Positions 4,898 through 25,099 of a stretch of DNA of 28,085 nucleotides are shown here, piece by piece. Numbering within the stretch: the stretch's first letter is position 1; each line of letters starts with the position of its first letter. The notes beneath the pieces are model-generated. The model was not told the DNA's origin, searched no databases, and was given only the letters and a program-made list of their open reading frames with translations. Where the stretch lies: IMG/VR virus record IMGVR_UViG_3300001533_001861, positions 1 to 28,085 of that record; one strand, 5' to 3'. This DNA comes from a virus. The position numbers and the translations under genes were made by a program.

Positions 4898-7800
4898 ATG
4901 TCTGCTCTTCAAGAACTTCAAAATTATACATTTGTTAGTAAATATGCTCGTTGGCTTGAAGATAAACAGCGTCGTGAGACATGGAAAGAAGCTGTTGAAC
5001 GTGTTAAAAATATGATGCATACTATGTATGCAGATAAGAATATTGCTGACGAAATTAATTGGGCTTATGATATAATGTACAAAAAAAAGGTTCTTGGGAG
5101 TCAAAGATGTCTACAGTTTGGTGGGGATCCTATATTAAAAAGAAATGCAAAATTGTATAATTGCACAGCAAGCTACTGTGATAGATTGAGATTTTTCCAA
5201 GAGTGTTTTTGGTTGTTGTTGTGTGGTAGCGGAACCGGATTCAGCGTACAAAAACATCATATTGCCAAGTTGCCCAGTCTTTCGTTAAAGCCCAAAGATA
5301 AAGATCAAGGGATTAAATATATTATAGAAGACAGTATCGAAGGCTGGGCCGACGCTCTGGGTGTTTTATTGAGTTCTTACTTTGTTAAGCCTTCTGAAGA
5401 GCGATTTGAACAATATAAAGATGAGTATGTAATATTTGATTATTCTGAAATTCGCCCACAAGGATCAACATTAAGTTCTGGAGTTGGCAAAGCCCCGGGG
5501 TTTGAACCACTGCAAAAAGGACTAGAAAAAATTAGAGTTCTACTAGATCGTTGTGTTGCCAACGGACAAAAAAAAATACGACCAATAGACGCTTATGATA
5601 TTGTTATGCACAGTAGTGATGCTGTATTAAGTGGTGGAGTTAGGAGATCTGCTAGTTTAGCATTATTTAGTGATGATGATCAAGAGATGATTAAGGCTAA
5701 AACCGGCAATTGGTTTATAGATAATCCACAGAGAGCACGTAGTAATAATTCAGTACTACTTTTGAAAGATGGTACATCGTTTGAAAAGTTTGCTTCGTTA
5801 ATGGAAAGTGTTAAAGAGTTTGGAGAGCCTGGATTTATTTGGAGTGATTCTACAGAAATAGTTTTTAATCCTTGTGTTGTTGGTGATTCTCTGGTAGCTA
5901 CAAAACATGGACTGTCTCTCGTAGACGAACTTATAGACAAACCATTCGATGCTTTGGTGGACGGTGAATTGTATTCTAGTCTCAAAGGATTTTGGAAAAC
6001 CGGAACAAAAGATGTTATAGAATTAGAATTTGTATCCGGCAGAAAACTAAGAGTCACACCTAATCACAAAATAATGACGACCCAAGGATGGAAAGAAGCT
6101 AAAGACATTACTTGTAAGAATGAAATAATTATCAATAATCACAGGTCTTTTCATACTTCTATAAATATAGAAAACAAAGAATATAAAAAAGGATATTTGT
6201 TAGGATCATTTTTAGGTGATGGTAATTACTCTAAAAAATCAGGGCAACTTAAGTGGTGGGGAGAAGAGAAAGACGAATACAGATCTGAAGCTTATGATAT
6301 GCTTTCTGATATAGGGTGGTTAAATAATCATAATAGTAAAGACACAAATAATGTCTCTGTATATGCCTCGATATCTTGTCAAAAATTATTAAGTTTTGCA
6401 GAACAAAGAAATTGCATGGTCGGCTCGTCAAAAAGATTGACAAAAAAAGCTCTTTCGGGAACCTGGGATTATATCAGTGGGTTGATTGGAGGATATTTTG
6501 ATGCTGATGGGACGGTCTCTGTTAATCATGTTAAGGGATGCTCTCTAAGAATATGGTCTGTACAATTAGAGAATTTAGAAAATTTACAAATAGCTCTTAA
6601 TAGTCTAGGCATTTATAGTAAAATATATAAAGAAAGATTATCAGCTGGACATAGACTCATGCCAGATGGAAATGGTGGAGAAAAAGAATATTTTTGTGAA
6701 ACCGGCCATGAATTATGTATTTCATGTGATAATATAGTCAAATTTCATGAATTAATTCCACTCAAAAATAAGGCTAAGTCTGAAAAAATACAACAAATTG
6801 TTTCTGGCTATAAACGATTGCCGAATAGGACTAATTTTACAGACAAGCTGATTAATAAAACTTTTGTAGGAGTATTAGATGTTTATGATTGCACAGTAGA
6901 AGATATTCATGCTTTTGATAATGACGGGGTTTATGTTCACAACTGTGTTGAAATCTCACTTTGGCCAGTTAATGAAAAAACAGGACAATCCGGGTGGCAA
7001 GGATGTAATCTCTCTACTATTAATTGTTCTTCTATAGAAGACGAAATAGACTTTTATGAGAGATGTAAAGCCGCCGCTATTATAGGAACTTTACAAGCGG
7101 GATTTACCAAATTAGAATATTTAGGTAAAAATACCGAACAAATATTTGAGAGAGAAGCTTTATTGGGCGTGTCCCTAACCGGCATTATGGAAAAACACGA
7201 CTTGGTTCTTTCCGAAAAAGTATTACGTCAAGGAGCCAAAATAGCTGTGGATACAAATAAAGAAATGGCTAAAAAAATTGGAATCAATCAAGCTGCTAGA
7301 GTAACTTGCTTGAAACCCGAAGGATGTCTTGCCAAAGAAACAATGGTTACTAGTAATTATGGAATATTGTCTCTTGAGGAGATGGGGGACATATATGGAG
7401 ATGAGTGGCAATCTCTAGATAACACTATGGTTGCCACAGACAAATCAAATCAAAAAGCCTCCAAATTTTTTGTTAATGGATATAAACCCACTAAAATAAT
7501 TTTAACTTCAGGTGGTATTGAGTTAGAATCTACACTTAATCACAAATTTAGAACATTAACTGAAGAAGGTCAGTATATATGGAAAACTGCAGAGGAATTA
7601 TCTGTAGGAGACATTTTGCCTTACAGATTGGGAGCATATAGTGGAGGTTCTGATCAGACACTAAATATTCCCAATATAGAAATATCAAGCCACGCATCAA
7701 GACTGAATATGGATATTAATTTGCCAAATATTATCGATACAAATTTTGCTTGGTTTCTTGGTTTATATACAGGAGACGGCTCCAATCACCCAGGAAAATA

Positions 7801-9280
7801 TTCTATTAGGATTCATGGCGATATAAACAAGCAAGAACACCTAATAAAAGCTCAAGAATATATAAAATCTTTTGGTATTGATGCTAAAATTATTAAATAT
7901 AATAAAGATAAAAATGATGTTAGATGTGCTTTGTATATAACATCAAGATTCTTTTATGAGTTTTTACGACATAATGATTTATTAAAACAAAAGTCACACG
8001 ATATAACAATACCTTTAAGTATAAGAAAATCTTCATCTAATATCATAGCTTCTTTTATTGATGGCTATGCTGCCGCCGACGGATGTACAAAGGGTCACGC
8101 TAGAAGTTTTTGTACAACCTCAAAACTGATGGCCTCACAATTAATCCAATGCCTAAGAGCAATCGGAATAGATTGCAAAATGAGATTGATGCCCCCAACG
8201 CCAACATCCTATGGTTCTGCTATGAGATATTGGATACAAGAAAGACTAGGTAGAAATTCAGAATATCTAAATAAAAACAAGTATTATAAATACTACAAAC
8301 TATTAGATCAATTAAAACTAAATTCTTTTGGTGTGGATTTGGTGGTAGATATTCGAGATTCATCGTGTGATACTTATGATATTAGTGTAGATCACGAAGA
8401 CCATACATATTTGGCCAATTCGTATGTATCCCACAATACCTCTAGCTCTATGCTTGGAACATCATCTGGTATCCATCCACATCACGCCAAACGCTATATA
8501 AGACACGTACAGGCCAATATTTTAGAAGCTCCATATCAACACTTCAAAGTTTATAACCCGCAAGCCTGCGAGAAGTCTTGCTGGTCAGCCAATAATACTG
8601 ATGAAGTTATTAAGTTTCCAATAGAGGTCCCAGATGGATCAAAACTAAAAAATCAACTACCAGCAGTAGAAATGTTAGAAGTGGTTAAAAATACTCAAAG
8701 AAATTGGGTTAATTCTGGTAAAAATAAACAATTATGTACTCAAGAGTTTTTAAACCACAATGTGAGTAATACTGTTACAGTCAAACCAGACGAATGGAAT
8801 GCTGTAACGAAATATATTTATGATAATAGAAAGTATTTTGCAGGAATAAGTTTGATTCCTCAAAGTGGAGATAAAGATTACCCACAAGCTCCATTTACTA
8901 CTGTTTATACCAGTAGAGAAATTGTGAAAGAATACGGAGACGCAGCCTTATGGTGCTCTGGTCTAATAGAATTAGCATTAAGCACATTTGATAATAATGT
9001 ATGGGCTGCTTGTGATTATGTCAGTATGAATCAGGCAAAAAATGTGGATTCTCCAGAAAAACTGGTATTTATTACAAAGGTGAAAAATTTTGCTGGTAAA
9101 TATTTTGATGGAGACATTAAAAGACTAACATACTGTATGAAAGACGTATATAATTGGAAAATATACTGTGATTTATTGAATACTTTTAATAAAGTTGATT
9201 ATACCCAATTGTTAGAGACGGAGGATAATACCGCAGGAATAGAAGAGGTTAGTTGTGCGGGCGGCGCTTGTGTAATCTGA
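4898..9280 (+). CDS. nrdJ: Adenosylcobalamin-dependent (class II) ribonucleotide reductase with two inteins
   Basis: The precursor is 1460 residues. Removing inteins at residues 326-682 and 810-1180 leaves 732 residues, close to the monomeric Lactobacillus-type NrdJ. It reduces ribonucleotides to deoxyribonucleotides using a B12-generated thiyl radical, with no NrdB partner and no oxygen requirement. Visible features: N-terminal KYARWL segment; C89 in LYNCT and C703 in WQGCNL (redox pair); a GSGTGFSV loop; the NPCVEI active site in which C683 is the radical cysteine; PEGTSSSMLGTSSGIHP phosphate-binding region; and a C-terminal CAGGAC tail that would re-reduce the active site. AGGAG at 4888-4892 precedes the ATG. 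The key catalytic loops are precisely those interrupted by inteins, so activity depends on protein splicing. Confidence 0.95.
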   Translation: MSALQELQNYTFVSKYARWLEDKQRRETWKEAVERVKNMMHTMYADKNIADEINWAYDIMYKKKVLGSQRCLQFGGDPILKRNAKLYNCTASYCDRLRFFQECFWLLLCGSGTGFSVQKHHIAKLPSLSLKPKDKDQGIKYIIEDSIEGWADALGVLLSSYFVKPSEERFEQYKDEYVIFDYSEIRPQGSTLSSGVGKAPGFEPLQKGLEKIRVLLDRCVANGQKKIRPIDAYDIVMHSSDAVLSGGVRRSASLALFSDDDQEMIKAKTGNWFIDNPQRARSNNSVLLLKDGTSFEKFASLMESVKEFGEPGFIWSDSTEIVFNPCVVGDSLVATKHGLSLVDELIDKPFDALVDGELYSSLKGFWKTGTKDVIELEFVSGRKLRVTPNHKIMTTQGWKEAKDITCKNEIIINNHRSFHTSINIENKEYKKGYLLGSFLGDGNYSKKSGQLKWWGEEKDEYRSEAYDMLSDIGWLNNHNSKDTNNVSVYASISCQKLLSFAEQRNCMVGSSKRLTKKALSGTWDYISGLIGGYFDADGTVSVNHVKGCSLRIWSVQLENLENLQIALNSLGIYSKIYKERLSAGHRLMPDGNGGEKEYFCETGHELCISCDNIVKFHELIPLKNKAKSEKIQQIVSGYKRLPNRTNFTDKLINKTFVGVLDVYDCTVEDIHAFDNDGVYVHNCVEISLWPVNEKTGQSGWQGCNLSTINCSSIEDEIDFYERCKAAAIIGTLQAGFTKLEYLGKNTEQIFEREALLGVSLTGIMEKHDLVLSEKVLRQGAKIAVDTNKEMAKKIGINQAARVTCLKPEGCLAKETMVTSNYGILSLEEMGDIYGDEWQSLDNTMVATDKSNQKASKFFVNGYKPTKIILTSGGIELESTLNHKFRTLTEEGQYIWKTAEELSVGDILPYRLGAYSGGSDQTLNIPNIEISSHASRLNMDINLPNIIDTNFAWFLGLYTGDGSNHPGKYSIRIHGDINKQEHLIKAQEYIKSFGIDAKIIKYNKDKNDVRCALYITSRFFYEFLRHNDLLKQKSHDITIPLSIRKSSSNIIASFIDGYAAADGCTKGHARSFCTTSKLMASQLIQCLRAIGIDCKMRLMPPTPTSYGSAMRYWIQERLGRNSEYLNKNKYYKYYKLLDQLKLNSFGVDLVVDIRDSSCDTYDISVDHEDHTYLANSYVSHNTSSSMLGTSSGIHPHHAKRYIRHVQANILEAPYQHFKVYNPQACEKSCWSANNTDEVIKFPIEVPDGSKLKNQLPAVEMLEVVKNTQRNWVNSGKNKQLCTQEFLNHNVSNTVTVKPDEWNAVTKYIYDNRKYFAGISLIPQSGDKDYPQAPFTTVYTSREIVKEYGDAALWCSGLIELALSTFDNNVWAACDYVSMNQAKNVDSPEKLVFITKVKNFAGKYFDGDIKRLTYCMKDVYNWKIYCDLLNTFNKVDYTQLLETEDNTAGIEEVSCAGGACVI
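5873..6943 (+). mobile_element. Intein 1 in NrdJ (class 1, LAGLIDADG endonuclease)
   Basis: 357 codons in frame. It starts with Cys (CVVGDSLV, block A) right after FNP and ends VYVHN just before Cys of CVEISLW, giving the spliced junction NP-CVEI. Block B is LRVTPNHKIMT (Thr and His present); block F is VYDCTVEDIHAF. Two LAGLIDADG motifs, GYLLGSFLGDG (intein residues 107-117) and GLIGGYFDADG (203-213), mark an apparently intact homing endonuclease. The +1 nucleophile of splicing is the reductase's own radical-forming cysteine. Confidence 0.93.
7325..8437 (+). mobile_element. Intein 2 in NrdJ (class 1, LAGLIDADG endonuclease)
   Basis: 371 codons in frame. It starts with Cys (CLAKETMVTSNYG) after CLKPEG and ends SYVSHN before Thr of TSSSMLG, so splicing restores PEG-TSSSMLGTSSG. 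Block B is ELESTLNHKF, with Ser-Thr-Leu-Asn-His in place of the usual TxxH; block F is TYDISVDHEDHTYL. LAGLIDADG motifs are WFLGLYTGDG (intein residues 143-152) and IASFIDGYAAADG (241-253). The +1 residue is Thr. It has little visible similarity to intein 1 outside the standard blocks, suggesting independent acquisition. Confidence 0.93.
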
Positions 9281-9293
9281 TCCCCTTATTCAC

Positions 9294-9297
9294 GAGG
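9294..9297 (+). promoter_or_regulatory. Shine-Dalgarno deciding the PhoH start
   Basis: GAGG at 9294-9297 lies 6 nt before the TTG at 9304. It supports that TTG as the phoH start rather than the TTG at 9253, which lies inside the end of nrdJ and adds 17 residues that do not look like PhoH. Confidence 0.6.
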
Positions 9298-9303
9298 TAT
9301 ACC

Positions 9304-11274
9304 TTGAGAAAAAATACTAAAGCTAAGAGAAAATCTAAGGTTATTGATGGTACTAATCCTTTAACACCACCAGAAATTGGTCATGTTTATAGAAATAAAT
9401 TAAAACCTCGTACTAATAACCAAAAAGAATATATCAGAACTATTGCGGAAAATACCGTAACATTTTGTCAAGGTGCGGCTGGCACCGGAAAAACGCATAT
9501 CGCTGTTGGTATGGGTTTAGAATATTTAATTGATGAAAAAGTTAAGAAAATTATTATTACTAGGCCGGTGGTTGAAAGTGGAGAAAAAATTGGTTATTTG
9601 CCTGGACCACAACCTATGGATGCAAAAATACTAACTCCGTCTGGGTGGGTATTAATGGGAGACATTAAGATTGGAGACATGGTAATTAGTCGAGACGGAC
9701 TGGCCACTAAGGTGCTAGGCGTTTTTCCAAAGGGTATAAAAACAGTATATAAAATCACCACAACAGATGGCAGAACAACAGAGTGCTGTTCAGATCATCT
9801 ATGGCTTACTCAGACGGCGGCTGACAGAAAAAGAAAAAGGGAAGGGTCTGTCAAAACAACCAAAGAAATATCTCTTTCTCTATTAAATGATAAAAATAAA
9901 ATTAATCACTTTTTACCAAGAAATGAACCAGTACACTTTGCACAACAAGAATTACCTATGTCCGCATACTCTCTAGGGGTTCTTTTGGGAGACGGAAGTC
10001 TATCTAATAGTATTACGTTTTCCAATACTGATAATGAGTTAATAGCAAGGGTAAATGAGGAAATGGCCCTCATAGGCTGCTATTGCGTCAAACAGTTACT
10101 AGATAGAATATCATATAATATTAGATCCAATCTACATAGCAAGAAAACAGCCAAACAGGTTTGTATGACAAACAGTAATACTGGAGAAATTACTAAATAT
10201 AGTTCAGTGGGCATAGCGTCTCAAAACCTAGCATTAAATAATAATACCCTGCAAGCTAGATGCAGAAGATTGTCTTCTGTTGGAGATGTTCAATATTCCT
10301 TTGAAAAACTAAATAAAACATATACTAATCCAGCCAAAGAAATTATATATAATCTTGGTATTTTAGGCACAAAAGCTATAAATAAATCTATTCCAAATAT
10401 CTATAAATACTCATCGATTACAGATAGGCTAGAATTACTCAGGGGACTTATGGATACAGATGGTAGTGTTAAAGAGAGTACCGGAGAAGCTTCTTTTTGT
10501 ACTATATCTAAACAATTGGCTCAAGATGTAATAGAACTAGTACAATCTCTTGGAGGTAAGGCTAGATTAATATCTAGAAATCGTGTTGGTAAAACGAATA
10601 TACTAAAGAAATCTAATAGAGTAATAACATCTAGACATATTAGTTATCAATTCAACATAACTCTACCAAATAATATGAATCCATTTTATATATCTAGAAA
10701 AGCTAAAAAATATAAGAATAATTTTATGCAAGGCATTGGTATATCCGAGATTGTGGAAGTGGGAGCCAAACCCGTACAGTGCATCAGAGTTGAACACCCA
10801 GAACACCTATATATTACTGATAATTATCTTGTTACTCATAACACCGCCGAAGAAAAATTACATCCTTATCTATTACCTATTCTGGACGAAGTATGTCATT
10901 TTATTCCGATGAGTCAATATGCTTCGTTAAAACTTAATAATCGTATCGAAATTGTTCCATTGGGACTGATGAGAGGCAGAAATTTTCATGATTGTTTTAT
11001 CATAGCAGACGAGTGTCAGAATGCTTCGTACGATCAACTAAAAATGTTGTTGACACGTACTGGCATGAATAGTAAAATGATTTTGACTGGAGATATAACT
11101 CAGTCCGATTTACAAAGACATATGAGGGGCGGATTTTTAGAACTAATTAATGCACTAGAAGGCATAGAAGGTATTGGAATTTCTATTCTAGATAATTCTG
11201 ATATTGTACGTAATCCTATAATTGCTTCTATATTGTATAGATTAGAAAACTACGAAAATGAAGAGCAAAAATAA
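9304..11274 (+). CDS. phoH: PhoH-like ATPase with a class 3 intein
   Basis: The precursor is 656 residues from the TTG at 9304. Excising 412 intein residues (102-513) leaves 244, the usual size of a phage PhoH-like P-loop ATPase. Walker A is GAAGTGKT (residues 57-64), followed by the IITRPVVESGEKIGYLPG motif; after the intein come TAEEKLHPYL, a Walker B-type IIADECQNAS, and the LTGDITQSD motif. All are in PhoH order. PhoH is a predicted RNA/DNA-acting ATPase, frequent in phages and often induced by phosphate starvation in bacteria; its exact job in phages is not established. It follows nrdJ closely and overlaps the HNH gene by 17 nt. A basic N-terminal stretch (KNTKAKRKSK) is present. Confidence 0.92.
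   Translation: MRKNTKAKRKSKVIDGTNPLTPPEIGHVYRNKLKPRTNNQKEYIRTIAENTVTFCQGAAGTGKTHIAVGMGLEYLIDEKVKKIIITRPVVESGEKIGYLPGPQPMDAKILTPSGWVLMGDIKIGDMVISRDGLATKVLGVFPKGIKTVYKITTTDGRTTECCSDHLWLTQTAADRKRKREGSVKTTKEISLSLLNDKNKINHFLPRNEPVHFAQQELPMSAYSLGVLLGDGSLSNSITFSNTDNELIARVNEEMALIGCYCVKQLLDRISYNIRSNLHSKKTAKQVCMTNSNTGEITKYSSVGIASQNLALNNNTLQARCRRLSSVGDVQYSFEKLNKTYTNPAKEIIYNLGILGTKAINKSIPNIYKYSSITDRLELLRGLMDTDGSVKESTGEASFCTISKQLAQDVIELVQSLGGKARLISRNRVGKTNILKKSNRVITSRHISYQFNITLPNNMNPFYISRKAKKYKNNFMQGIGISEIVEVGAKPVQCIRVEHPEHLYITDNYLVTHNTAEEKLHPYLLPILDEVCHFIPMSQYASLKLNNRIEIVPLGLMRGRNFHDCFIIADECQNASYDQLKMLLTRTGMNSKMILTGDITQSDLQRHMRGGFLELINALEGIEGIGISILDNSDIVRNPIIASILYRLENYENEEQK
9607..10842 (+). mobile_element. 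Class 3 intein in PhoH (Pro1, WCT triad, LAGLIDADG endonuclease)
   Basis: 412 codons inserted between YLPG and TAEEKLHPYL. The first residue is Pro (PQPMDAKILTPSGW), not Cys or Ser, so a class 1 N-S acyl shift is impossible. The class 3 signature is present: Trp66 two residues after His64 in block B (SDHLWLT), Cys392 at block F position 4 (VQCIRV), and Thr410 in the terminal VTHN, with Thr as +1. LAGLIDADG motifs are SLGVLLGDG (intein residues 122-130) and LRGLMDTDG (278-286). Confidence 0.9.
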
Positions 11275-11836
11275 TTCTTGTTTATTATTAAATGCTGATT
11301 ATAGTCCTTTATCTATCATAGATTGGAAAAAAGCTTTAACATGGTCTATTCGTTATGATCATAATCCAAAATATGGTATAGATATTATTGACTTTTACAA
11401 AGATGATCATATTGTCGGTGTTAATAACAAAAAATACCCTATTCCAGCAGTAGCCAGAACTAAACGATTCTTTAAGATTAAAGATTCGGTATTAATTTTT
11501 TCTCGTAAAAATATTTTTTTGAGAGACAATTATACTTGTCAATATTGTAATAAACAATTCGAAAATAAACAATTGACATATGATCATGTAATACCAAAAT
11601 CTAAATGGAACTATGAATACGGTTCGCCAACGGTATGGACAAATATAGTTACGGCATGTGTCGCTTGCAATAGAACGAAGGGCAATAGATCGCCAAAACA
11701 AGCAAATATGAGTCTAATCAACTTACCTTATAAACCTAATAAAACTAATAAATATCTACCGATATCTCATCATTTAAGAAAAAGAGCATATATACCATCA
11801 GAATGGACTATCTATCTGCCTTCATCTTATTTGTAG
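11258..11836 (+). CDS. HNH endonuclease
   Basis: 192 residues. The C-terminal half is a zinc-stabilised HNH nuclease: CQYC (C94, C97), the LTYDHVIPKSK motif with catalytic His110, Asn129 in WTNIV, and CVACN (C134, C137, Asn138) followed by RTKGNRSP. The N-terminal part (LLLNADYSPLSIIDWKKAL, then FSRKNIFLRDN before the zinc site) matches the widespread bacterial/phage HNH family of about 170-190 residues (COG1403/McrA-like). It would make double-strand breaks or nicks; the target is unknown. It overlaps the phoH end by 17 nt. Candidate roles are a free-standing homing endonuclease or a packaging/host-DNA degradation nuclease. It is the last gene before a promoter, so it probably ends this operon. 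Confidence 0.9.
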   Translation: MKSKNNSCLLLNADYSPLSIIDWKKALTWSIRYDHNPKYGIDIIDFYKDDHIVGVNNKKYPIPAVARTKRFFKIKDSVLIFSRKNIFLRDNYTCQYCNKQFENKQLTYDHVIPKSKWNYEYGSPTVWTNIVTACVACNRTKGNRSPKQANMSLINLPYKPNKTNKYLPISHHLRKRAYIPSEWTIYLPSSYL

Positions 11837-20669: not shown

Positions 20670-20691
20670 TTGGAATTAACAACAAAAAAAG

Positions 20692-20697
20692 AAGGAA
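20692..20697 (+). promoter_or_regulatory. Shine-Dalgarno fixing the polymerase start upstream of the in-frame stop
   Basis: AAGGAA at 20692-20697, 7-8 nt before ATG 20705. No comparable site precedes GTG 20750. Initiation is therefore expected before the TAA at 20747. Confidence 0.7.
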
Positions 20698-20704
20698 CAA
20701 ATTT

Positions 20705-20743
20705 ATGGACGTGAATAAGGGATATGTTCCTTTACACGTCCAT
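20705..20743 (+). other. Hairpin covering the polymerase start and first 13 codons
   Basis: ATGGACGTG (20705-20713) pairs with CACGTCCAT (20735-20743) over 9 perfect base pairs. Inside it AAGGGA (20717-20722) pairs with TTCCTT (20727-20732, one G-U) around a TATG tetraloop; a 3 by 2 internal loop separates the stems. The base of the hairpin abuts the TCT-TAA at 20744-20749. Confidence 0.75.
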
Positions 20744-22597
20744 TCTTAAGTGTCTCATTATTCACTTTTGGATGGACTATCAAAACCAGAGCAAATCGCC
20801 GAAAGATGCAAAGAAATAGGTACACCTGCTTGTGCATTAACAGATCATGGTAATATAGCAGGTACTGTTAAATTTTATTCTGTGCTAAAAAAACATGGAA
20901 TAAAACCAATTCTTGGTTGTGAGCTATATATTTCAAAACATAAAGCGTCTCTACAAGACGCGACAAACAAAAGCTTAAGTCACTTACTAGTATTGTGTAA
21001 AAATTTTGACGGATGGAGAAATTTAATCAAGATAGTTTCTGCATCAAATAATCCGATTAATTATTATTATAAACCAAGACTAGATCTAGATTTATTAAAA
21101 GATTTACACACAGGCAATCTATTAGGAATTACTGGACATTTAGGTTCCACGTTGGCCGACACAATTTTAGAATCTGACTATAAAACATTGAAACCCGATT
21201 GGCAAGAGCTGGGAATAAACCACATAAACTATCTAAAAACAATCTTTAATGATCTATTTTTAGAAGCTCAGTTAATGGACCAAGAGCACCTACCTGTTCA
21301 AATAACACTTACAGAATCTATTAGGCTTTTAGGGAAGCTTACAAATACTAAAGTGATATGTACTCCTGATGCTCATTATTGCAACAAAGAAGATGCTGTA
21401 GATCAAAGAATACTTTTATGTAATAATCTTAAGACTACATTAGTAGATGTTAATAAAAAAATTCTCAATAAAGAAGACATTCCTATGGGTTGTTTTTTTA
21501 TATCTGATAATTATCACATATTATCTTCCGAGGAGATGCAAAATTTGCATACGCAAGAAGAAATAGAAAATACTCATTATGTTAATAGTTTAATAGAAGA
21601 ATACAATATATTAAACAAACCTAAATTGCCACCATTTTCTTGTCCTCCCGGATTTGATGATGTAGAATATCTGAGAGAGTTGTGTAGAAAAGGATGGAAA
21701 GAAAAAATTGCTAATGTCATTCCTAAAGAAGATCATCAAAAATATATAGATCGCATCAAATACGAATTGGATGTTTTACAGGGTGCGGATTTAAGTAGTT
21801 ACTTTTTGATAGTTCAAGATATAGTTAATTTTGTTAGAAAAAAAGGATGGCTTCCAGGATGTGGACGAGGTAGTGCTGCTGGTTGTCTTGTGTCATATTT
21901 GATTGGAATTACTAGTATAGATCCTATTAAATATAATCTACTTTTCGAAAGATTTTATAATTCTGGTCGTAATACAGCTAATAGCATATCTATGCCAGAT
22001 ATTGATGTAGATGTTCCTATTGATAAACGTGAACAAATAATCGAATATATTAAAAAGAAATACGGTCAAGACAAAGTATCTCAGATGATTACATTTAATA
22101 CGATGAAAGGAAGAGGAGCACTCAAGGAAGTACTCAGAGTATACGGTAATATTAGTTTTGAAGAAATGAATAATATTACCAAGAATATACCAGACGAAGC
22201 TAAAATTGCTGATCAGCTACAAGAGATGAAAGAAGATTACGGAGAATCATCTATTATACGTTGGTCATTAGAAAATAGTCAAGATAAATTAAAAGAATGG
22301 TGTTTTATATCCGAAGACGATAAACTCACAGGACCGCTTGCCAAAAGATTTGAGCAGGCTATAAGATTAGAAGGTACTAAATCTAATCAATCTAAACACG
22401 CTGCTGGCATTGTTATCTCTAGCGAAAATTTATCAGATATATGTCCGATGATATATGATGCTAAAAATAAACAAATGATAGCCGGTATGGAAATGCAAGA
22501 CTTAGAGGCATTAGGAATAATAAAATTCGATATTTTAGGTGTAGCTATGTTAGATAAGATAATGGATATTTCTTTTAAACTAGAAAAAGGAGAATAA
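20705..22597 (+). CDS. dnaE: DNA polymerase III alpha subunit, N-terminal half (PHP and palm), with in-frame stop at codon 15
   Basis: The frame from ATG 20705 encodes MDVNKGYVPLHVHS, meets TAA at 20747, and continues from GTG 20750 for 615 residues. Numbering from that GTG: PHP metal ligands D9 (LLDG), H33 (TDHGN), E58 (GCE), H78 and D207/H209 (PDAHY) are present, while the HxH ligands lie before the stop. The palm has GRGSAAG (372-378), the catalytic pair D417/D419 in MPDIDVD, QMITFNTMKGRGALK, SKHAAGIVIS and the third catalytic Asp D594 in KFDILGV. It ends soon after that motif; the rest of alpha is encoded at 23474-25099. It works with the dnaB/dnaG products as the phage replicase. How the stop is passed (bypass, reinitiation at GTG, or a lesion) is open. 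The end is followed by a small gene with a good Shine-Dalgarno. Confidence 0.88.
20744..20755 (+). other. Candidate translational bypass site (TCT TAA GTG TCT)
   Basis: An in-frame stop (20747-20749) lies between two identical Ser codons, TCT 20744-20746 and TCT 20753-20755. Skipping 9 nt, with peptidyl-tRNA re-pairing on the second TCT, gives HVHS-HYSLLDG, the canonical PHP N-terminus. A weak hairpin, AAGTG (20748-20752) with CACTT (20763-20767), puts the second TCT at the start of its loop. Confidence 0.55.
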
Positions 22598-22599
22598 AT

Positions 22600-22779
22600 A
22601 TGAATAAAACTTTTGCCCAATTAACCAATGGCGCTAGATTTTCTTTAAATAGTAATAGTTATATTAAAGTACAAGAAGTAAAGGTAAGTTGCTGCAAAAC
22701 GGTCAATGCTCATTTAGCATCTGATCCTAATAATCGAATTTATATTCGTCCAGAAACTACGGTGATTGTAGATGGCTAA
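22600..22779 (+). CDS. Small hypothetical protein between the polymerase halves
   Basis: 59 residues, ATG preceded by AGGAG (22588-22592), overlapping the exonuclease start by 8 nt. The pattern FAQLTNGARFSLNSNSYIKV, then NAHLA, then PETTVIVD resembles a widespread class of tiny, beta-rich phage/bacterial proteins (F-x-x-L-x-x-G-x-x-F ... Y-x-K-V ... N-A-x). Two adjacent Cys (residues 31-32) are present but no zinc motif. Function unknown; its placement between the two halves of the replicase suggests it arrived or was kept together with the exonuclease. Confidence 0.65.
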   Translation: MNKTFAQLTNGARFSLNSNSYIKVQEVKVSCCKTVNAHLASDPNNRIYIRPETTVIVDG

Positions 22780-23464
22780 TAATCAAAAAATTTGTGTATT
22801 TGACCTGGAAACAGATGGTAGTGATCCTACTGTTTGTAGTCCGGTTCAAATAGCCGCTGTTATTATAGATCCAAGAAAATTGGAAATAATTGAAGATTCC
22901 GAATTTAATATTAACTTAATGCCAGAAGCTGTAGAGAAAAATAAAGATTATGATTACAATGATAGCGACGTTCTAGACTTTCATGCAAAAGTCAAAAACT
23001 TATCCAAAGAAAAAGTTTTAGCCGAATGGAGAGAATATCAAAAACAAGAAATAGGCTGGAAAATGTTTATTTCTTATCTAGAAATGTACCATATTAGATC
23101 TAGTGGTAAAAAATCATGTTTTACAGCACCTATTGCTTGTGGCTATAATATAAATCGATTTGATTTGCCAATTATAGATCGACTAAGTAAAAAATACAAT
23201 AATATTAATAAAGAAAAAAAAACAAACATCTTTTATCCAAGAGATGTGGTAGATGTTATGAATGTTGTATTTTATTGGTTTGAAGGAAATAATGAGCTCA
23301 AAAATTATACACTAGATAACTTAAGAGAATATTTGGGTATGTCTAAGGAAGGTGCTCACGACGCTCTAAAAGACGTAAAAGATACAGCAGAAATTATTAT
23401 ACGTTTCTTACGTTTACACAGAAACTTATCTAAAAAAATAAAGTTCAAGGGATCTTTTTGCTGA
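22772..23464 (+). CDS. dnaQ: DnaQ-like DEDDh 3'-5' exonuclease (proofreading-type)
   Basis: 230 residues. DEDDh motifs: Exo I FDLETDG with Asp and Glu (residues 10-16), Exo II GYNINRFDLPII with its Asp, and Exo III AHDALKDV with His and Asp near residue 191-198. The fold matches the epsilon proofreading subunit of polymerase III, about the right length. A 60-residue stretch between Exo I and II contains charged helices not typical of E. coli epsilon. It is encoded between the two alpha halves, which strongly suggests that it proofreads for them. There is no clear beta-clamp-binding motif. It overlaps the small upstream gene by 8 nt. Confidence 0.9.
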   Translation: MANNQKICVFDLETDGSDPTVCSPVQIAAVIIDPRKLEIIEDSEFNINLMPEAVEKNKDYDYNDSDVLDFHAKVKNLSKEKVLAEWREYQKQEIGWKMFISYLEMYHIRSSGKKSCFTAPIACGYNINRFDLPIIDRLSKKYNNINKEKKTNIFYPRDVVDVMNVVFYWFEGNNELKNYTLDNLREYLGMSKEGAHDALKDVKDTAEIIIRFLRLHRNLSKKIKFKGSFC

Positions 23465-23473
23465 ATATATAGA

Positions 23474-25099
23474 ATGGCAAATTATTATACTTTTTCTTGC
23501 GGATGTAAATTCCCTATAATTGGTGATTCTACTGAATATCCACGCATACATTTCGTACCAACTATAGAAAATATTAATCTTGATTGCTCTATGACTTGGG
23601 ATTTAATATCAGAAGGTAATACAAAAGGATGCTTTCAATTAGAATCTAGATTAGGGCAAATGATGGCTAAAAAACTTAAGCCGTCCAATATAGAACAACT
23701 ATCTGCTCTTATTGCGATTATTAGACCCGGATGCTTGGAAGCTATTAGAGACGACAAAAGCGTAACTAATCATTACATAGATAGAAAAAATGGAAAAGAA
23801 AGTATTGATTATTTTCATCCAATATTGGAACAAACTTTAAAGGATACATTCGGAGAGATGATTTATCAGGAACAAGCTATGGAAATAGCAAGAATTGTTG
23901 CTGGTTTTGATTTGAAACAGGCCGACGAACTCAGAAAAAGCATTGGTAAGAAAAATGTCGAATTGATGTCTAAAGTTAAGACCAAGTTTTTGGAAGGTTG
24001 TAAGGAACAAAAAAGCGTTTCCGAGGACGAAGCAGAAGAAATCTTTGGATGGATCGAAAAAAGTCAAAGATATTCTTTTAATAAGTCTCATTCTATTAGT
24101 TATGCAATCAACGGATATTTATCTGCTTATGCAAAAGCCCATTTCCCTAAAATCTTTTTTGCTTCTTATCTAAAATTTGCTAAAGATAAAATAGATCCTC
24201 AACAAGAAATCAAGGAGCTAATCCGTAATGCTTCGGAAATGGATATAAGTATTCGTATACCTGATTTTAGACTACTTAATGAGCTTTTTATCATACATGA
24301 TCAATCTATATTTTTTGGATTAACCGACATTAAAGGTGTTGGTAATTCAGTATACAAAAAAATTATTGAAATAACCAACGATATTAATTTAAACACATTA
24401 AATAAACTACAGGTAATTATAAAGATTTTATTAAAAATCAACTCTACCGCCAGTAAAGCATTAATTAAGTGCGGGGCATTTGATTATTTAAGAACCAGTA
24501 GAACAGAAATGTTATTCGAATATGACCTATGCTCTGCATTAACAGATAAAGAAGTTAATAATCTAGAAAAAATTGTTGATTATAATAATAATGTCTCGTT
24601 AAAAGTTTGCTTAGAGCAATTAATTACAACCACTAAAATTACACAAAAAAGATCAGATGTTGTAAAACATTTGATACATTCTATCATCAAACCTCCATAT
24701 TCGTTAGTTGATAAAATAGAATGGTTATCGGATTGTGAAAATGATTTATTAGGAGCAGCAATTAGTTGTTCAAAATTAGATACATACGATATTACAATGA
24801 CAAATACTACTTGTAAGACATTTAAAAATTCTAATCTGTCTAATAATATTATTATTGCTGGAGAAATTGCCAATATTAATATAGTCAAAACCAAAACTGG
24901 TAAAACTCCAGGTCAAGAAATGGCTTTTTTAACTATAGAAGACCAAACAGGATTGATAGATTCTGTCATTATGTTTCCCGAAAGCTGGATGAAGTATAAG
25001 CCTCATATGTATATAGGTAATATTTTGATATTTGTCGGCAACAGAAGTAAAACCAAAGATGGCCTAATTGTAGATAAATGTTTTGTGCCAAAGGCTTGA
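23474..25099 (+). CDS. dnaE: DNA polymerase III alpha subunit, C-terminal half (fingers to OB fold)
   Basis: 541 residues. It resumes alpha where the gene at 20705-22597 ends: INLDCSMTWDLISEGNTKG then CFQLESRLG, LIAIIRPG, YFHPILEQTL, IYQEQAM and RKSIGKKN (fingers), SQRYSFNKSHSISYAINGY, a helix-hairpin-helix-like GLTDIKGVGNSVYKKI, and a C-terminal OB fold at about 450-541 (IIAGEIANI ... MAFLTIEDQTGLIDSVIMFP). The first 30 residues (YYTFSCGCKFPI) have a CxC motif. With the N-half it would total about 1150 residues, the normal size of alpha. No split intein sequences flank the break, so the halves probably assemble non-covalently. No Shine-Dalgarno is evident at the ATG, 9 nt after the exonuclease stop. 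Confidence 0.9.
   Translation: MANYYTFSCGCKFPIIGDSTEYPRIHFVPTIENINLDCSMTWDLISEGNTKGCFQLESRLGQMMAKKLKPSNIEQLSALIAIIRPGCLEAIRDDKSVTNHYIDRKNGKESIDYFHPILEQTLKDTFGEMIYQEQAMEIARIVAGFDLKQADELRKSIGKKNVELMSKVKTKFLEGCKEQKSVSEDEAEEIFGWIEKSQRYSFNKSHSISYAINGYLSAYAKAHFPKIFFASYLKFAKDKIDPQQEIKELIRNASEMDISIRIPDFRLLNELFIIHDQSIFFGLTDIKGVGNSVYKKIIEITNDINLNTLNKLQVIIKILLKINSTASKALIKCGAFDYLRTSRTEMLFEYDLCSALTDKEVNNLEKIVDYNNNVSLKVCLEQLITTTKITQKRSDVVKHLIHSIIKPPYSLVDKIEWLSDCENDLLGAAISCSKLDTYDITMTNTTCKTFKNSNLSNNIIIAGEIANINIVKTKTGKTPGQEMAFLTIEDQTGLIDSVIMFPESWMKYKPHMYIGNILIFVGNRSKTKDGLIVDKCFVPKA

Follow-up and report, generated by a model that had tools for sequence, protein, structure and literature searches.

In the viral DNA analyzed here (the window, 28,085 nucleotides, positions 1 to 28,085 of IMG/VR virus record IMGVR_UViG_3300001533_001861, one strand), the gene for the DNA polymerase III alpha subunit (Pol III alpha) raises the question of how a protein could be made across a stop codon that falls inside one of its conserved motifs. 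A short open reading frame (ORF), MDVNKGYVPLHVHS, ends at TAA, and downstream of this stop the window continues in frame with GTG-TCT-CAT-TAT-TCA-CTT-TTG-GAT-GGA (SHYSLLDG...), the beginning of a 615-aa ORF with PHP and Pol III alpha domains. Because joining HVHS to HYSLLDG restores the Pol III alpha motif, the nine nucleotides TAAGTGTCT interrupt it; with both domains present, the HxH[ST]-xYSLLDG motif is continuous only when this gap is skipped, and solved Pol III alpha structures align across the junction without an insertion. Comparison with relatives, together with predicted RNA folding, indicates that the locus is very probably a programmed translational-bypass element, similar to that of T4 gene 60, with a short gap and driven by mRNA structure (Table 1).

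The polymerase of the window is also split further downstream (20756-25099): the N-terminal part extends to 22597 and is followed by a DnaQ-like exonuclease (22772-23464) and by the C-terminal part (23474-25099) with the finger, HHH and OB domains. This split looks like a family trait, given that almost all relatives have an N-terminal ORF of similar length. One further polymerase, on a 170-kb contig (L070, ~4997-5015), carries a 2-nt frame break just past HxHS with neither stop nor hairpin, which could be an error or a different frame change.

Table 1. Parts of the proposed bypass element and the adjoining polymerase gene in the window
Feature	Position	Strand	Remarks
Shine-Dalgarno (SD) sequence GAAGGA of the element's own start codon	20691..20696	+	Seen in the sequence; SD-like motif ahead of the start among the members listed; leader absent from uninterrupted siblings
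ATG start codon and 5' arm of hairpin A (ATGGACGTG)	20705..20713	+	
Inner stem-loop of hairpin A, UAAGGGA-UAUGU-UCCUUUA; encodes part of a 3-codon N-terminal extension and YVPL	20716..20734	+	
HVH codons, forming the 3' arm of hairpin A (CACGTCCAT)	20735..20743	+	Val codon GTC in 51/51 members and 4/101 uninterrupted relatives (letters within a scan pattern)
Take-off codon TCT (Ser 14)	20744..20746	+	
Stop codon TAA adjoining the take-off codon	20747..20749	+	TAA, TAG or TGA in relatives
Proposed bypassed stretch TAAGTGTCT, 9 nt including the landing codon	20747..20755	+	
Upper stem-loop of hairpin B, AAGTG (20748-20752) with CACTT (20763-20767)	20748..20767	+	Compensatory changes in relatives
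Hairpin B as a whole, including the lower stem formed by GTCCATTC (20738-20745) and GGATGGAC (20770-20777); in competition with hairpin A	20738..20777	+	Lower stem: codon enrichment only
Proposed landing codon TCT; decoding would resume at CAT 20756	20753..20755	+	
Remaining N-terminal part of Pol III alpha (HYSLLDGL...)	20756..22597	+	

A sequence-only reading of the locus had described a two-part hairpin, here called hairpin A, that reaches from the start codon to the base before the take-off codon. Folding of 20705-20746 bears this out (-20.2 kcal/mol, z -5.3): the two outer arms are exact reverse complements over all nine claimed pairs, and the TCT and TAA codons lie where that reading placed them. 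An inner stem is also present, although with a different geometry from that described, namely a predicted 7 bp closing the 5-nt loop UAUGU, shifted by one register, instead of 6 bp with a TATG loop. The assertion that such pairing exceeds chance expectation holds as well, since in a control of 3000 versions with the amino acids kept and the codons resampled, none was as stable as the native sequence (mean -7.8, sd 2.5). The SD was said to remain outside the hairpin, and so it does, but it is perhaps not free, because in the minimum free energy (MFE) fold of the window it is paired. With ~100 nt of context, this fold (-28.7) lacks hairpin A and combines an SD:GTTCCTTT pairing with that of GTCCATTC-TTAAGTG and CACTT-TTGGATGGAC; the best fold that contains hairpin A reaches -25.2. 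In this respect the window is an outlier, hairpin A dominating the ensemble in 49 of the 51 members of the family described below. The complementarity lies between the SD and the Pro-Leu codons of the inner 3' arm (AGAAGGAAC with GTTCCTTT, within 20690-20734), and the leader of the window can thus also hide the SD; in most members the SD-hiding fold is weaker than hairpin A.

Protein scans of IMG/VR returned mostly straight-through polymerases (M..YIPLHVHS-MYSLLDGL) and ten distinct ones carrying a stop at the corresponding position. With two DNA-pattern scans, the set of distinct interrupted sequences grew to 51 (window included), to be compared with 101 uninterrupted ones. The pattern-found members were selected for GTCCAY-TCN-TAR (in one scan also for TTGGAYGG), and this biases their counts at the selected letters; neither the leader nor the 5' arm nor the content of the gap belonged to the scan patterns, and the ten protein-found members share these features. 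Many of the 51 members are near-copies of one another, the distinct gap/stem combinations numbering 32. Five sequences were added later: L339, from a contig of a bacterial metagenome-assembled genome (MAG), L370, and L377-L379, in which the stop is TGA. The MAG contig was the one real match in a scan of a genome collection; a Staphylococcus match in the same scan was rejected as due to chance. Among the matches listed, the nearest polymerases of cultured phages are at most 34% identical, and hence no cultured host can be named. Siblings without the bypass state have neither the gap nor the leader, a stretch of tens of nucleotides. We also built a covariance model for the element and applied it to the window alone. 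The same architecture, a start-codon arm pairing just before a stop, was also sought elsewhere in the collected loci; of the 264 matches off the polymerase site, those listed are mostly devoid of an SD and were set aside as chance-like.

Hairpin A is present in all 51 members and in none of the 101 uninterrupted relatives. Over the 42-nt stretch, the members have a mean MFE of -18.0 (weakest -12.8), whereas the uninterrupted sequences have a mean of -2.8 (strongest -8.7). The 5' arm opens with the start codon, at a distance of exactly 30 nt from the HVHS codons downstream (27 in five members), so that the distance from start to take-off is a constant 13-14 codons; in L052 and L255, a start six codons earlier is possible. 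The arms occur in nine combinations, each forming either 8 or all 9 of the pairs, and 98.8% of the cells are paired compared with 24-47% when slid. Thus, the covariation that had been proposed as a check is found: the third codon is GTG or ATG with CAC or CAT opposite, GC pairs are replaced by AU, and in L052 the start codon itself has changed from ATG to GTG, matched by a change from CAT to CAC. When the arms were permuted over the nine distinct combinations only, 4.5% of the shuffles were as good, which is weak by itself, and the case for hairpin A is accordingly built on its presence and absence, the per-pair counts and the codon control. A relative with the same stop and no pairing potential, the observation named beforehand as speaking against the hairpin, occurs in 0 of the 51. 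The stop and the hairpin thus occur jointly: a collection-wide scan for an SD followed by hairpin A, blind to what lies downstream, found no polymerase copy without the stop (and four other matches elsewhere). The mean probability that the start codon is unpaired is 0.14 over the members, and the second suggestion of the sequence-only reading, that hairpin A sequesters the start codon, may, on these folding predictions, be true as well.

The stop (TAA, TAG or TGA) directly follows the Ser codon of the HxHS motif of the PHP domain in 51 of 51 members, in addition to the TGA members, a count that is partly due to selection in the pattern scans but is 10 of 10 among the protein-scan members. Between this Ser codon and the following His or Met codon there are 6, 7, 8, 9, 10, 11 or 12 extra nucleotides (in 1, 1, 3, 9, 18, 18 and 1 members, respectively), and the gaps span all three frames. 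On the upstream side the codons keep Y-x-PLHVHS with synonymous variation, and on the downstream side coding resumes exactly at H/M-Y/F-SLLDG(L), which is intact in the members. The bypass reading in which the hairpin acts as stimulator is therefore, as far as comparative data go, strongly supported by the relatives, with a hairpin found only together with the stop, covarying arms, gaps in all frames and conserved flanks.

The take-off codon is TCT in 33, TCC in 17 and TCG in one of the 51 members, its TC being among the letters selected for in the pattern scans. The landing codon is TCT (18), TCA (10), TCC (3), TCG (1), ACT (10) or GCT (9), that is, TCN in 32 of 51; the sole TCG take-off (L255) is paired with a TCG landing, and L052 has the bare arrangement TCT-TAA-TCT. 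The 19 ACT and GCT landings have a first-base mismatch to tRNA-Ser, with an in-frame GTG or ATG there in 18 of the 19. A model of re-pairing alone is weakest for this class, although two of the three bases are able to pair; imperfect two-of-three pairing is also reported for mitochondrial bypass in a 2016 review (PMC5009743). Because the stem arm is shorter by one base in this class, hairpin geometry might determine the landing no less than the codon match does. In L379, with a TCA take-off, the landing would fall on TGA. No phage tRNA was found in the window. The larger bypass phages with tRNA clusters (L340, L341, L344, L345, L349 and L369) encode a tRNA-Ser with the anticodon ACT (A at position 34), unusual for AGY codons, for which GCT is expected; UCN codons are not read by it.

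The stop and the gap form a second hairpin, B, with the downstream (Tyr)-Ser-Leu codons, and this hairpin covaries. Its variants include AAGTGAA:TTCACTT (in many members), AGAGAA:TTCTCT, AGCGAA:TTCGCT, TAGTGA:TCACTA and TAACGA:TCGTTA, and in the TGA-stop version GAGTG:CACTC, where the Leu codon is CTC. Measured through the Ser codon, the stems have a mean length of 6.6, compared with 5.0 (sd 0.23) when the partners are shuffled. The 5' arm has the landing codon at its top, usually with the last two bases of that codon in the loop. The codons of the lower stem (GTCCATTC:GGATGGAC), which competes with hairpin A, are enriched (31/39 versus 19/101), with no clear covariation of this stem among the members. 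Hairpin B is not universal, since its stem is weak in L052 and in a different register in L255. Taken as a whole, the sequence-only reading is partly supported; it missed this second covarying hairpin and the distribution of the element across a family.

Among the other ways to account for these data, termination followed by reinitiation fares best, although we regard it as unlikely. Under this scheme, the first 13-14 codons are a leader ORF and translation restarts at a nearby GTG or ATG, yielding a polymerase that lacks the first metal-binding His pair. An in-frame GTG or ATG is indeed found at the gap or resume codon in 24 of 51 members, including the window (TAA-GTG), but the remaining 27 have no in-frame NTG there, so that restarting cannot be general, and in L314 the GTG was lost through a change that preserves the stem TAACGA:TCGTTA. 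Moreover, the upstream YVPLHVHS is maintained as an amino acid sequence, and its HxH motif belongs to the PHP fold. Since reinitiation in general fails, as do readthrough and frameshifting (see below), either a hop over the gap or its removal from the RNA remains. Removal before translation, by a small splicing event or by cleavage and ligation, is equally indifferent to the frame and to the ACT and GCT landings, and the gap is flanked by two hairpins. We nevertheless find it very improbable: it needs no stop at the take-off site, no restriction of take-off to TCN and no TCN landing, while AGY take-off codons are found in 0 of 10 protein-scan members compared with 30 of 101 relatives. To our knowledge, no bacterial system excises 6-12 nt from an mRNA. 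Stop-codon readthrough, a suppressor tRNA or a single frameshift is scarcely tenable: the window by itself is in frame across TAA, but for the family these models are ruled out because gap lengths of 6-12 cover three frames with both flanks intact, three different stop codons are used, and readthrough would place extra residues inside an invariant motif. A sequencing error, assembly artefact or pseudogene has an equally negligible chance, for although the sources are metagenome assemblies with no close relative among cultured phages, the element recurs in many independent metagenomes and in a separate MAG project (L339), with long open downstream frames, two covarying stems and a perfect association of stop and hairpin.

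For the preferred bypass by the ribosome, we propose the following tentative model. The ribosome would translate 13-14 codons until the Ser take-off codon is in place and the stop occupies the A site, where the upper stem of hairpin B, with the final bases of the stop in it, would hinder access of release factor and tRNA. The peptidyl-tRNA-Ser would then release the mRNA. The inner stem of hairpin A may begin to form at the mRNA exit, after which the outer 9 bp would zip behind the ribosome, pulling the mRNA back by about the length of the gap and blocking its return. Such a motor would fit the layout of the element, since the outer stem ends at the take-off codon and its 9 bp roughly match a hop of 6-12 nt. 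The tRNA would settle on the Ser codon (or on a codon matching at two of three bases) atop the 5' arm of hairpin B, and decoding would restart at His/Met-Tyr/Phe-Ser-Leu-Leu-Asp-Gly, giving a product with an uninterrupted PHP motif, HVHS-HYSLLDG (predicted junction peptide GYVPLHVHSHYSLLDGLSK). Because the start codon lies within hairpin A, refolding of the latter may limit the loading of a second ribosome.

In a FastTree tree of 140 polymerase N-terminal parts, explaining the distribution of the bypass state takes 23 changes, of which well supported branches force at least 13. Elements that are 92-95% identical, including at positions that are free at the protein level, are found in polymerases that are 58-67% identical in DNA. 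The scattering over the polymerase tree and the identity of up to 95% between divergent genes suggest that a short cassette moves horizontally, with structural constraint contributing to the identity. It seems an evenly balanced proposition that a widespread, horizontally moving cassette of ~75-100 nt supplies the conserved PHP motif of phage replicative polymerases with an SD, start codon, hairpin, stop and short gap of its own, that RNA structure alone, without a nascent-peptide signal, brings about hops of 6-12 nt, and that polymerase synthesis is coupled to a 5' stem-loop in which the start is concealed. The cassette may spread by disrupting the target of a homing endonuclease, or may persist by regulating polymerase output; protection of a conserved target from a homing endonuclease has been proposed for T4 gene 60. 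Elsewhere in the window (4898-11836) there are a class II ribonucleotide reductase gene with two LAGLIDADG intein stretches and a PhoH gene with one, followed by a gene for a free-standing HNH endonuclease.

Knowledge of high-efficiency bypass in bacteria and phages has so far come largely from a single gene, T4 gene 60; the 2016 review called for further and regulatory cases (PMC5009743). The more than fifty natural variants offer covariation that shows which structures matter, together with the tolerated gap lengths and landing codons, and would be evidence that a long nascent-peptide signal is dispensable. In practical terms, gene callers will mis-start such polymerases and lose the metal-binding His-x-His. 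No prior description of the element was found in the literature searched, which took in few subscription journals or preprints.

As described in PMC5009743 and PMC11194080, in T4 gene 60 the stop occupies the A site, accompanied by a small A-site stem-loop and a take-off stem-loop, and the top of its 5' stem-loop forms just outside the mRNA exit, completion of the stem pulling the mRNA. On these accounts, the element and T4 gene 60 have in common a phage replication gene, a stop adjoining the take-off codon, a usually matched landing codon, a 5' stem-loop upstream of take-off and a take-off stem-loop that includes the stop. They differ in the gap, which is 6-12 nt in the element and 50 nt in T4 gene 60, where an SD-like sequence precedes the landing site, a feature in which the element departs from T4; and in the take-off codon, Ser TCN at codon 13-14 as opposed to Gly GGA at codon 46. 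A nascent-peptide signal of the T4 type (KKYK, ~25-30 residues from the P site) apparently has no room here because only 13-14 residues are made, and the earlier starts of L052 and L255 still leave too short a peptide. Unlike T4 gene 60, the element has its start codon inside the 5' stem-loop and its landing codon inside a hairpin, is known in more than fifty variants and resides in another gene.

Bypass has also been proposed for broken-frame phage genes, the terminase of Streptomyces phage Hau3 (PMC5009743) and the tmp gene of Corndog (PMC4351075); these are few cases in other genes and at other sites, and comparative RNA-structure support of the kind presented here is not given in the text available from these sources. 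The byp elements in mitochondria of the yeast Magnusiomyces capitatus (81 sites, with an unused codon in the A site) are said to be independent of mRNA context (PMC5009743). They share with the present element short skipped inserts, a sometimes imperfect codon match and apparent spreading, whereas the latter is found in phages, at a single site and with conserved hairpins. Finally, synthetic stop-hops in Escherichia coli (Weiss et al. 1987, via PMC5009743) used constructs with matched codons around a stop, and no natural in-frame stop-hop was known according to the 2016 review (PMC5009743). L052, with TCT-TAA-TCT (9 nt for one amino acid), resembles these constructs; unlike them, the element has conserved flanking RNA structure and, if the proposed bypass is real, would represent the first natural family of stop-hops.
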